A stretch of DNA of 64,000 nucleotides from Candidatus Binatia bacterium. Lineage in GTDB: Bacteria > Vulcanimicrobiota > Vulcanimicrobiia > Vulcanimicrobiales > Vulcanimicrobiaceae. The translations under genes and the position numbers were made by a program. Every line of letters starts with the position of its first letter. The stretch's first letter is position 1. The stretch is taken from the NCBI GenBank assembly GCA_035544215.1, contig DATKHY010000001.1:62001-126000 (forward strand), in the 5' to 3' direction. The notes under the pieces are model-generated. The model saw only the letters and a list, made by a program, of their open reading frames with translations. It searched no databases and was not told the origin of the DNA. Shown piece by piece: positions 34,591-37,712 of the stretch.

Positions 34591-34757
34591 GGTATCAGGC
34601 CCGGGCCCGGCGGCCCAGCAAAAGCGCCATGGCGATGCTTTAGGAACGGGACGGCAAACCCCTGCGCGGGCGGGCGCGAGGTCGCCGTTTCGCCCGCTTC
34701 AGGAGTTTTTGCCGCGAGCGTGAAACCACGACCCTAGCAGTGGTGGTCCGGGGCACT
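34559..34757 (-). ncRNA. Highly structured candidate RNA ending in a terminator (class unknown)
   Basis: The 240-bp gap between two divergent genes codes for nothing convincing. Read on the minus strand, CGGCAAA...CTCCTG pairs with CAGGGG-TTTGCCG (13 bp with a two-base bulge), enclosing GCGGGCG/CGCCCGC. Then come an AAAGC/GCTTT hairpin with a GCCATGGC core, a GGGCC/GGCCC stem and the terminator. This could be a small RNA or a cis-acting leader of the hypothetical gene. I could not match 6S, tmRNA, SRP RNA, RNase P or a known riboswitch. The sigma-factor promoter must also lie here on the plus strand. Confidence 0.45.
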
Positions 34758-34759
34758 GT

Positions 34760-35428
34760 ATGAGCGCGCTCGCACCACTCCTTACGGGAGTTTACGTGCC
34801 ATCAGCGACAACGGCCGGGCGGCCCCTCAGGGCGCGGCCCCGAGGCGACTCCGCTCCGACCGTGGCAAAGTTCGAATCGATCGTGGACGACTATCAGCGC
34901 CGGCTGTATGGTTTCGCCCTGCGCATGACAGGCAACCGCGAGGATGCCGAGGAGATCGTGCAAGACGCATTCGTGCGTGCCTATCGTGCTCTGGGGAAGA
35001 TGTCGCCCGAGCAGCGGGCAGACCTACGCCTGCAGCCGTGGCTGTACACGATCACGCTTAACGTCACGCGCAACAGGCTGCGCGGCAAGCGGCCGACGAA
35101 CGTTGCCCTGGACGCCCTGGCCGACCCCGATGCGATCCTGCGCGAATCCAACGAAGGGCCGCCACAGCCTGAGACGATCGTCGAGCAAAATACCGAGATC
35201 GCACTCGTCGAACGCGCCCTCCTGCAGTTGCCGATGCACCTCCGCGCGGCCGCGACACTCCGGTTTATCGAAGGGCGAAGCCATCCGGAGATCGCCGAAA
35301 TACTTCATCAGCCGATCGGCACGGTAAAATCCCACGTCCATCGAGCGGTGCGAATACTTCGGCGCATCCTTGGGCCGCAGATCGGTCGATTTTCCCCGGA
35401 AGGAGTCCCAATGCATGCGTTGTCGTGA
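34760..35428 (+). CDS. ECF-type RNA polymerase sigma factor
   Basis: 222 aa. Region 2 is FESIVDDYQRRLYGFALRMTGNREDAEEIVQDAFVRAYRAL with the usual DAEEIVQDAFVRAY polymerase-binding helix. Region 4 is LVERALLQLPMHLRAAATLRFIEGRSHPEIAEILHQPIGTVKSHVHRAVRIL, the promoter-recognition helix-turn-helix. The linker (PTNVALDALADPDAILRESNEGPPQPET) is long and acidic. Its last 14 bp overlap a gene for a zinc-finger anti-sigma fused to an alkyltransferase, and the ribosome site of that gene (GGAAGGAG) lies inside this one, so the two are translationally coupled and are probably a cognate pair. Confidence 0.93.
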   Translation: MSALAPLLTGVYVPSATTAGRPLRARPRGDSAPTVAKFESIVDDYQRRLYGFALRMTGNREDAEEIVQDAFVRAYRALGKMSPEQRADLRLQPWLYTITLNVTRNRLRGKRPTNVALDALADPDAILRESNEGPPQPETIVEQNTEIALVERALLQLPMHLRAAATLRFIEGRSHPEIAEILHQPIGTVKSHVHRAVRILRRILGPQIGRFSPEGVPMHALS

Positions 35429-36146
35429 CGTCGAGGCGTTGTGGGACGAGCTCCGCGGCGAGTGTCAGGCCTCGCTCAAGGAGACCGTCCATACCCACCT
35501 GCGCGCCTGTCCCTCGTGCCAGGACATGTACGAACAGTACGAGGGCGTGGCGTATTGCCTCTCCTCTCTGCCCCGCCCCGAGCCGTCCTGCGACCTTGCC
35601 AAAAAGATAGTTCAGCACATTGGCGCGCTCAAAGGCAAGATACACTCGCCGATCGTCCTGTCCGCAATCGCGACGCCGCTCGGCCGAGTCTACGTTGGGT
35701 TCACGCATCATCGGATCGCGTACGTCAGCCTCGACGCCGGCGAGCCGTTCGACGACGTGGTCGCGCGAGCGGGCCACCGTCTGCGGCGCGACGTCGTTCC
35801 GGGCGAGGCACCGGTCTGGCTCGTGCGCGCTCTCGAGAAGTTCTTCAGCACCTGGACCGTCGACGACGCGATCGTGGACATCAGCGACCTGACGCCGTTC
35901 GAGCAGGCCGCGCTGCGCGCCGCGGCGCGCATTCCACGCGGCGAGGTGCGCTCGTACGCGTGGGTCGCAACGCAGATCGGTCGGCCGCGTGCCGCGCGCG
36001 CCGTCGGCCGCGTGATGGCGCGCAATCCGCTGCCGCTCCTCTTTCCATGCCATCGCGTCGTGGATTCGTCCGGCGAACTCCACGACTACTACTACGGCGT
36101 AGAAATGAAGGCTCGTCTTCTCGAAATGGAGGGCTACCGGCGTTAG
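35415..36146 (+). CDS. Fusion of anti-sigma zinc-finger domain and O6-alkylguanine-DNA alkyltransferase
   Basis: 243 aa from ATG 35415, 10 bp after GGAAGGAG. Residues 1-40 are a zf-HC2 anti-sigma domain: Cys3 and the block HTHLRACPSC giving His28, Cys32 and Cys35 (HxxxCxxC). Residues 77-150 resemble the N-terminal domain of Ada/Ogt proteins (VLSAIATPLGRVYVGFTHHRIAYVSL). Residues 159-241 are a complete alkyltransferase: TPFEQAALRAAARIPRGEVRSYAWVA, an RAVGRVMARNP helix, the acceptor site FPCHRVV (Cys212) and KARLLEMEG. No membrane helix is present. I infer a cytosolic anti-sigma that binds the overlapping sigma factor and releases it on alkylation of Cys212 or of DNA, like Ada but through a sigma factor. 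Confidence 0.85.
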   Translation: MRCRDVEALWDELRGECQASLKETVHTHLRACPSCQDMYEQYEGVAYCLSSLPRPEPSCDLAKKIVQHIGALKGKIHSPIVLSAIATPLGRVYVGFTHHRIAYVSLDAGEPFDDVVARAGHRLRRDVVPGEAPVWLVRALEKFFSTWTVDDAIVDISDLTPFEQAALRAAARIPRGEVRSYAWVATQIGRPRAARAVGRVMARNPLPLLFPCHRVVDSSGELHDYYYGVEMKARLLEMEGYRR

Positions 36147-36170: not shown

Positions 36171-37712
36171 ATGAGCGATCCTCGGATAGCGGCCATGCCG
36201 GACGTTCACGGTCATGCCAAGGGTGAGCATCGGCCCTACACCGAGGAGCGTCCCATCGCGTACTCGGCGCGGATGCTCTTCCTCTGGTTTTATCACGCGT
36301 GCCGGCGGTTTTCGCCGCGGTTCCTGATGGTGGCAGACCACGCGAACTACTTGACGTTCGAGGATCCGGGGGCCGTCAACACCGTGCGCCGCGCGCTCAA
36401 GCTCGCCCAAGCCGGCGATCTGCTCGGCGCCGCTGAGACGGCCGGCGTCGACGTCGCTCACGCCGCACTCGTATCCGAGGGGCTGCGACGAGGAATGCGG
36501 TTTTCGATCGGCGCGGAGATGGACAACGATCCGCGGGCGCGGCCCGACGCGCAGAACATCATCGACGCGATGCGCCCCGACGGCATTATCCGTTCGGTCC
36601 ACTTCGTCCCGATTCAGCATCCGGAGAAGGGGACGGACTGGCTGTGGCCGTTCGACAACGAGGAGTTCGCGGGACTCTACGAAGTCGTGAGCACCGATCA
36701 GCTCTGGGACCTCTACGTCGCGAAGCTCGTCGACGACCTCGAGAAACTGCCCACGCACGTCGTCGGCCACTTCTACGTGCCCGCGACGCTCGGCCGGTGG
36801 CCGGCCCAGAAGAAACTCGAAGAGTACGAGGATCGCATGCTGGACGTCGCCCATAGGCGGCGCCTGGCCGTCGAAATCAACACGCGATTCCTCTATCGCG
36901 ACGTCCCGGAAGATCGTAAGAAGAAGTATCTCGACGCCAATGCCCGGCTGATTCGCAAGGCGAGGGCGCGCGGCGTCGGCATCGCGATCGGCTCCGACGC
37001 ACACAGCCCGCGGGACCAGGGCAACGCCTTCGACATCGTGCTCAAGCTGCTCGACGACGCCAGGGTCAACGAGGTGGTATTCCCGGTCGCCGGCCGATTG
37101 GCGCGCGTCGCCCTGCGCGCCACGCGCGAACACCTCGAGGCTCAGGCTCAGGCGGGGCGCCAGCCGATCGCGCCGGGGAGCAGCATCACCGGCTACGGCA
37201 GAGCCGAGCTCGGATTGCCGGAGGACGTGGAAGGCGTCGCGGGACGGCGCGAGGGCGCGCGCACGATGCGCGACGCCGGGCCGAAGAAACGCGCTGCAGC
37301 TTCGTCGACACCGAGCACGTCGCGACGATCGGCTGAATCCTCCTCGTCCGCGTCTAGAGCGAAAGCCGCCCGCGTCGGTAAGCCCGCACCTCCCAAGAGG
37401 AAGGAAGTAAAGAGCGGTCCGGCCGGCCACAAGAAACGACCCTCCGCCGGGCCTGCGAAGAAGACTACAAAGCGCCCCGCAAAGCCGGCGACGGCGCGGC
37501 GCAAGAAGACCTCGCCTGTCCGCGCCGGCAAGAAGAAATCCGTGGGCAAGCCGCCGACGAAGAGACCTGCTGCTAAGAAACCGCCCGGCAAGAAGGCGAC
37601 GGCCAAGAAGCCCGCGCCTCGGCGGCCGGCGAAGCCCAAGCCCAAGCGGCTTCTGACCGGTTACGCGAAGAAGACGGCGAAAAAGAAGAAACCGGCGGCG
37701 AAGCGCCGCTGA
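36171..37712 (+). CDS. PHP-domain phosphoesterase with histone H1-like basic tail
   Basis: 513 aa. The first 340 residues contain the PHP metal ligands in order: DVHGHA (HxH), VADHANYL, IGAEMD, VHFVPIQHP, VVGHFYVP and GSDAHSP (DxH). From about residue 365 to the end the chain is Lys/Ala/Pro/Arg rich in the style of bacterial histone H1-like proteins (PAKKTTKRPAKPATARRKK, KKPPGKKATAKKPAPRRPAK). The PHP part hydrolyses phosphoesters; the tail should bind DNA or RNA. It starts 25 bp after the alkyltransferase fusion and is likely in that transcription unit. A DNA-repair or nucleic-acid processing role is inference. Start at ATG 36171 has no clear ribosome site. Confidence 0.75.
   Translation: MSDPRIAAMPDVHGHAKGEHRPYTEERPIAYSARMLFLWFYHACRRFSPRFLMVADHANYLTFEDPGAVNTVRRALKLAQAGDLLGAAETAGVDVAHAALVSEGLRRGMRFSIGAEMDNDPRARPDAQNIIDAMRPDGIIRSVHFVPIQHPEKGTDWLWPFDNEEFAGLYEVVSTDQLWDLYVAKLVDDLEKLPTHVVGHFYVPATLGRWPAQKKLEEYEDRMLDVAHRRRLAVEINTRFLYRDVPEDRKKKYLDANARLIRKARARGVGIAIGSDAHSPRDQGNAFDIVLKLLDDARVNEVVFPVAGRLARVALRATREHLEAQAQAGRQPIAPGSSITGYGRAELGLPEDVEGVAGRREGARTMRDAGPKKRAAASSTPSTSRRSAESSSSASRAKAARVGKPAPPKRKEVKSGPAGHKKRPSAGPAKKTTKRPAKPATARRKKTSPVRAGKKKSVGKPPTKRPAAKKPPGKKATAKKPAPRRPAKPKPKRLLTGYAKKTAKKKKPAAKRR

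Follow-up and report, generated by a model that had tools for sequence, protein, structure and literature searches.

The window, the whole 64,000-nucleotide stretch of Candidatus Binatia bacterium DNA analyzed here, encodes an ECF sigma factor and, overlapping it, a single protein in which a class I zinc anti-sigma domain is followed by an O6-alkylguanine-DNA alkyltransferase (MGMT). From this architecture and its conservation we infer, as somewhat likelier right than wrong, that the alkyltransferase anti-sigma is the sensor and the ECF sigma factor the output of an autoregulated restocking circuit, in which the fusion protein would bind and inhibit the sigma factor, alkylation would trigger its release, and the operon itself would be the main target. 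When damaged DNA uses up the repair protein, the sigma factor is probably switched on.

The overlap of 14 bp between the two genes spans positions 35415-35428, and the coordinates, frames and overlap given in the initial annotation proved exact (Table 1). The sigma protein matches sigma region 2 (1.7e-16) and region 4 (1.1e-13) in Pfam. An artefactual gene fusion was ruled out: the frame is continuous, the length is conserved, the gene occurs in 93 genomes, and it has its own Shine-Dalgarno sequence. Of the 20 sigma-70 region 2 genes in the window's genome, only the one in this pair lies next to any of the genome's four MGMT domains. The fusion is not the only alkylation defense of this organism, since the genome also encodes an ordinary Ogt and an AraC-type helix-turn-helix MGMT protein. 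The latter (L052; G000:C7, around 1519602) is Ada-like but lacks Ada_Zn, the domain with which Ada accepts methyl groups from phosphotriesters, and may be a second, sensor-less regulator. Ada_Zn is absent from the fusion protein and from the whole genome, and Pfam detected no AraC-type helix-turn-helix in the fusion protein.

Table 1. Features of the sigma/fusion operon, with positions counted from the first nucleotide of the window
Feature	Position	Strand	Basis
ECF-type promoter: -35 TGAAACC (34721-34727), 18-nt spacer, -10 GTC (34746-34748)	34721..34748	+	conserved motif
ECF sigma factor gene, 222 aa	34760..35428	+	Pfam Sigma70_r2 and r4_2, TIGR02937
Shine-Dalgarno AAGGAG for fusion gene, within sigma gene	35400..35405	+	sequence
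Anti-sigma/O6-alkylguanine-DNA alkyltransferase fusion gene, 243 aa	35415..36146	+	domains, conservation, model
Class I zinc anti-sigma domain, residues 1-72	35415..35630	+	RsiW/3HUG sequence matches, zf-HC2, model
Zinc-ligand codons C3 (35421-35423), H28 (35496-35498), C32 (35508-35510), C35 (35517-35519)	35421..35519	+	invariant 39/39 plus 10/10
O6-alkylguanine-DNA alkyltransferase, residues 80-240	35652..36134	+	PF01035, TIGR00589, fold
Acceptor Cys212 in FPCHRVV	36048..36050	+	invariant in 39/39

The initial annotation had described a zf-HC2-type anti-sigma N-terminus joined to a complete alkyltransferase with acceptor Cys212, and domain searches, PDB profile matches and a structural model all agree with that description. 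The zf-HC2 score itself is borderline: the whole protein reaches 18.1 bits (E 0.0029), slightly below the Pfam cut-off of 22.2, and the N-terminus alone reaches 22.1 bits, at the cut-off. For this reason, a profile of the first ~73 residues, built from 17 homologues, was searched against the PDB as an independent test. Only two plausible structures emerged, B. subtilis RsiW (E 0.0011) and 3HUG (E 0.0014), which we take to be M. tuberculosis RslA, and the next match had an E-value of 0.59. Both are zinc anti-sigma factors, and the RsiW alignment spans residues 17-68. The predicted structure (mean pLDDT 86.5) places helices at residues 3-15, 19-31, 33-51 and 59-72, ahead of the MGMT fold; these form the three-helix bundle plus helix 4 that characterizes class I anti-sigma domains, with residues 40-75 modeled at lower confidence. 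The Hx3Cx2C signature with an upstream zinc ligand is present as well (C3, H28-x3-C32-x2-C35; 39/39), and a cognate ECF sigma factor is co-encoded, as for other members of the class.

The alkyltransferase domain is recognizable as well. Residues 161-240 match the MGMT DNA_binding_1 family in Pfam (1e-28), and the closest fold is the C-terminal domain of E. coli Ada by TM-score (1SFE; TM 0.81 over the target) and M. tuberculosis Ogt by E-value (4BHB). The MGMT signatures are present, namely the PCHR acceptor cysteine, the Asn hinge, the Glu of the catalytic triad, the arginine finger and the recognition helix, and the residues of the last two are invariant (RAVG...ARNP). Since all catalytic residues are retained, selection for repair chemistry seems likely, and we predict that the domain is active.

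Conservation within the window's order is nearly complete. The fusion was searched for in 149 genomes of the phylum, 103 of them from this order (families f1 and f2), and was found at full length in 93 of the 103. None of the other ten order genomes exceeds 88% completeness, and every order member that is at least 90% complete has a full-length copy; in the remaining genomes of the phylum, matches are confined to the alkyltransferase part. Ten residues (C3, H28, C32, C35, Y181, R195, N204, C212, H213 and E239) are invariant in 39/39 full-length homologues sharing 45-100% identity, and the match is therefore not due to chance. A sigma gene lies directly upstream in 40/40 of the loci first examined, overlapping the fusion gene by exactly 14 bp in 34 and by 11 bp in 4, with the genes 0 or +5 bp apart in the remaining 2. 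Ten further order genomes agree in sigma adjacency and in the zinc ligands (10/10), and none of the 49 order genomes inspected lacks the sigma gene, the zinc ligands or the active site; the sigma factors themselves are 70-95% identical across the order. The initial annotation had asked whether the fusion always neighbors an ECF sigma gene, whether its zinc finger is ever degenerate, and whether the architecture recurs in other genomes. Among the order genomes inspected the sigma neighbor is constant and the zinc finger is intact throughout (39/39 plus 10/10), and the architecture is no one-off, given its near-ubiquity in the order and its relatives in further phyla.

No alkylation-repair genes adjoin the operon in the window's order. 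The downstream genes are syntenic (a PHP-domain protein, an EF-G-like protein and sometimes a pyroglutamyl peptidase), but they have no alkylation link and were dropped as candidate functional partners. In the window, the PHP-domain protein (36171-37712) carries a long, histone-like C-terminal tail rich in Lys, Arg, Pro and Ala, and the gene is found near the operon across the order.

Upstream of the sigma gene, a search with the pattern [CT]GAAAC[CT]-N16-19-GT[CT] recovered a promoter motif in 32 of 37 order sigma regions, against 0.055 expected from base shuffles, and in 10/10 further order genomes (42/47 overall). The motif, YGAAACY-N17/18-GTY, usually lies 8-15 nt from the sigma start codon, and in the window its -10 element ends 11 nt before it. 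This ECF-type layout suggests autoregulation, and the position of the motif suggests an almost leaderless transcript. When exact matches with a close downstream ATG were compared across seven genomes, only the sigma operon recurred, apart from a match upstream of soxR that was shared by two genomes and looks incidental, and no other repair gene was recovered. In the window's own genome, the motif gave 16 matches versus 6 in controls, mostly non-genic. Because the motif recurs only at the sigma operon, a narrow regulon consisting mainly of the operon itself is the simplest reading of an exact-pattern search that can miss targets. The shared promoter motif anticipated in the initial annotation was thus found before the sigma operon but did not recur before repair genes in those seven genomes. 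Among relatives elsewhere, it precedes the sigma genes of three Rubrobacter loci (L086, L088 and L089), with four scattered GGAAC-type matches, and is absent from the rest.

A wider search, started from plasmid-collection matches and one genome-wide scan, showed that sigma-linked alkyltransferases extend well beyond the order. All 80 nearest relatives of a Rubrobacter protein have an ECF sigma gene immediately upstream, 60 of them with a 4-bp overlap, and all 80 consist of an alkyltransferase followed by Ada_Zn. As these relatives were picked by similarity, even draws of whole genomes were added as a check, and in Chloroflexota and Actinomycetota a sigma gene was present at 39/40 top loci. The proteins of these two phyla have the form short helix-alkyltransferase-Ada_Zn and are encoded beside ECF sigma genes, but without a zinc finger. 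Most relatives outside the order carry instead a segment of ~30 residues (L..L....P..L...v...) that often aligns with the helix 4 end of the order's anti-sigma domain. The design can thus do without the zinc finger, since a short N-terminal helix is all that most of these relatives have. Acidobacteriota encode a three-part form, zinc finger-alkyltransferase-Ada_Zn, in 11 of 396 genomes, with the sigma gene upstream at 11/11 loci; in one of these proteins (L109) zf-HC2 scores above the Pfam cut-off (28.8 versus 22.2 bits). Six Acidobacteriota MGMTs without the zinc-finger or Ada_Zn extensions have no adjacent sigma gene. Viral contigs were also searched for relatives, and none were found there. 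The sigma partnership is conserved across at least four phylum-level groups.

Gene neighborhoods in the wider family point to alkylation, with alkB, ogt or alkA sometimes lying beside the Acidobacteriota genes as well as those of Actinomycetota and Chloroflexota. At about 15 of the 80 loci, an alkB-type dioxygenase, a second ogt or alkA is encoded in the same orientation no more than about 1.2 kb away, and Tsukamurella and Arthrobacter plasmids carry ogt-sigma-ogt followed by AlkB-type genes. Because alkB, ogt and alkA are classical alkylation-repair genes, alkylation is the best-supported signal for the family as a whole. The plasmid loci (L056 in Arthrobacter and L058 in Tsukamurella) resemble a mobile, sigma-controlled alkylation-repair cluster that is probably ECF122-like. 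On a plasmid of Streptomyces sp. NBC_00464 (L057, 1563-3582), a sigma-linked MGMT-Ada_Zn protein with a diverged MGMT (PCHRAT, long branch) is followed by a separate, normal Ogt, which suggests that the former may be a sensor-only paralogue. In a Thermoanaerobaculia genome (L136, 1567-2380), what reads as an RsbU-like phosphatase gene lies directly 3' of the zinc finger-alkyltransferase-Ada_Zn gene.

A 100/99 branch of the MGMT tree separates ordinary Ogts from a sigma-linked side, which holds the proteins of the order, the zinc-finger forms of Acidobacteriota and the Ada_Zn proteins, with three stand-alone Acidobacteriota MGMTs nested among them. The ordinary-Ogt side holds the ECF122-like MGMTs (L056/L058) and a second Acidobacteriota fusion set (L227; L228/L231). 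With these two further lineages beyond the 100/99 branch, the tree rejects one common origin for all the sigma-linked MGMTs, and sigma factor and MGMT were therefore paired more than once. Proteins of the second Acidobacteriota set have other anti-sigma-like N-termini, one without zinc ligands and one with a different zinc motif, and an ECF sigma gene directly upstream. Sigma factors of the order and of the Ada_Zn systems cluster together in the sigma tree, with modest support (90/88). The design is wider than first thought, including Acidobacteriota, Actinomycetota and Chloroflexota forms and two further MGMT lineages that were paired separately.

The alkyltransferase reaction is irreversible (PMC4437013), so one molecule is consumed per repair event, and if the consumed molecule is an inhibitor, sigma factor is released in proportion to damage. 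In undamaged cells, the N-terminal zinc domain of a cytoplasmic fusion protein would, with helix 4, hold the ECF sigma factor inactive. Upon meeting O6-alkylguanine, the alkyltransferase domain would move the alkyl group irreversibly to Cys212, and the spent protein would lose its grip on the sigma factor, through either a conformational change or unfolding and degradation. Several MGMT structures change little on alkylation, and release may thus need degradation. The freed sigma factor would then transcribe its own operon from the YGAAACY-N17/18-GTY promoter, producing fresh anti-sigma/repair protein in proportion to the amount used, and the loop would close once unalkylated protein again outnumbered the sigma factor. 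The anti-sigma domain, alkyltransferase sensor and sigma output proposed in the initial annotation are consistent with the sigma adjacency, the intact zinc finger and a sigma factor kept in other phyla, usually with Ada_Zn, but the zinc finger is no essential part of the scheme.

Since the zinc domain resembles those of redox anti-sigmas, a thiol or electrophile signal is possible. The zinc finger itself could then be the sensor, as in RsrA or ChrR, with oxidants or electrophiles, perhaps including alkylating agents acting on zinc-bound thiolates, ejecting the zinc and the alkyltransferase serving only as an effector. Ada Cys38 provides a precedent for alkylation of a zinc-bound thiolate, the C3/H28/C32/C35 arrangement is that of zinc anti-sigmas, with a weak RsrA-family match, and the ligands are invariant in the order, where many members carry additional cysteines at positions 17, 48 and 59. 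However, these additional cysteines are not conserved, and in Actinomycetota and Chloroflexota the sigma factor, alkyltransferase and Ada_Zn occur together without any zinc finger, leaving the alkyltransferase as the constant part. Zinc is also known to play a structural role in RsiW (PMC7406223), and a zinc-based sensor seems unlikely.

Alternatively, the signal may be engagement of DNA or of the lesion rather than alkyl transfer, with DNA binding and sigma binding mutually exclusive. The invariant recognition-helix and arginine-finger residues would fit such a scheme, but so strict a conservation of the acceptor cysteine would be needless for pure damage binding, a role that ATL proteins fill while lacking this cysteine, and we regard engagement alone as improbable. 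There is a similarly small chance, if very slightly larger, that the protein does not actually work as an anti-sigma factor, and that an alkyltransferase under sigma control is docked by its N-terminal domain on the sigma factor or RNA polymerase to direct repair. Docking is in line with the lack of a complete anti-sigma domain in most relatives and with a published listing of ECF122 that gives no recognized anti-sigma factor (PMC8999054). It sits poorly with the order's N-terminus, a complete four-helix zinc anti-sigma domain, and with the short N-terminal helix kept by zinc-less forms, which often aligns with helix 4, the contact to sigma region 2 in class I anti-sigma domains (PMC7406223).

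The proposed alkyltransferase-sensing circuit shares features with several known systems. Like E. coli Ada, the fusion protein is a suicide alkyltransferase that would double as a regulator and raise its own expression; its alkyltransferase fold is nearest that of Ada by TM-score, and the Ada_Zn methyl-acceptor domain is found in many relatives outside the order. Unlike Ada, it contains neither the AraC helix-turn-helix nor Ada_Zn, and its output would be a dedicated ECF sigma factor, whereas Ada, acting with the housekeeping sigma factor, switches promoters on by binding them with its methylated N-terminal domain (PMC4437013). With ChrR, RsrA, RsiW and RslA it shares an N-terminal zinc anti-sigma domain encoded with an ECF sigma factor. 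Fusions of class I anti-sigma factors to sensor domains have precedents, and in ChrR the sensor likewise lies behind the anti-sigma domain, but the domain fused in the window's protein is a DNA-repair alkyltransferase.

The initial annotation knew of no described system of this design. No description of an anti-sigma/alkyltransferase protein was found in a literature search that reached few subscription papers and not the primary ECF classification, but the neighborhood itself has been listed: the entry for ECF122 in a 2022 review (PMC8999054, citing Casas-Pastor 2021) gives a conserved 6-O-methylguanine DNA methyltransferase neighbor, no anti-sigma factor and an "unknown mechanism." The conserved MGMT neighbor is a feature that the window's sigma factor shares with ECF122 as listed there, and the ECF122-like actinobacterial ogt-sigma-ogt-alkB loci (L056, L058) carry a different MGMT lineage from that of the window. 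We see an even chance that these systems amount to a second kind of adaptive response to DNA alkylation in bacteria, based on a sigma factor, in which a suicide alkyltransferase is the anti-sigma factor and each repair uses up one inhibitor and thereby meters sigma release; it would be present in several phyla and of more than one origin.

The idea lends itself to direct testing, since benzylguanine-type substrates allow alkyltransferases to be titrated. If it is true, bacteria possess a parallel to Ada that repairs and senses in a single chemical step and responds through a dedicated sigma factor, each lesion spending one inhibitor and freeing one sigma. The association of ECF sigma factors with methylguanine methyltransferases, already published but unexplained, would then have a mechanism, and a large set of uncharacterized sigma factors from Actinomycetota, Chloroflexota, Acidobacteriota and the lineage of the window would have a signal.
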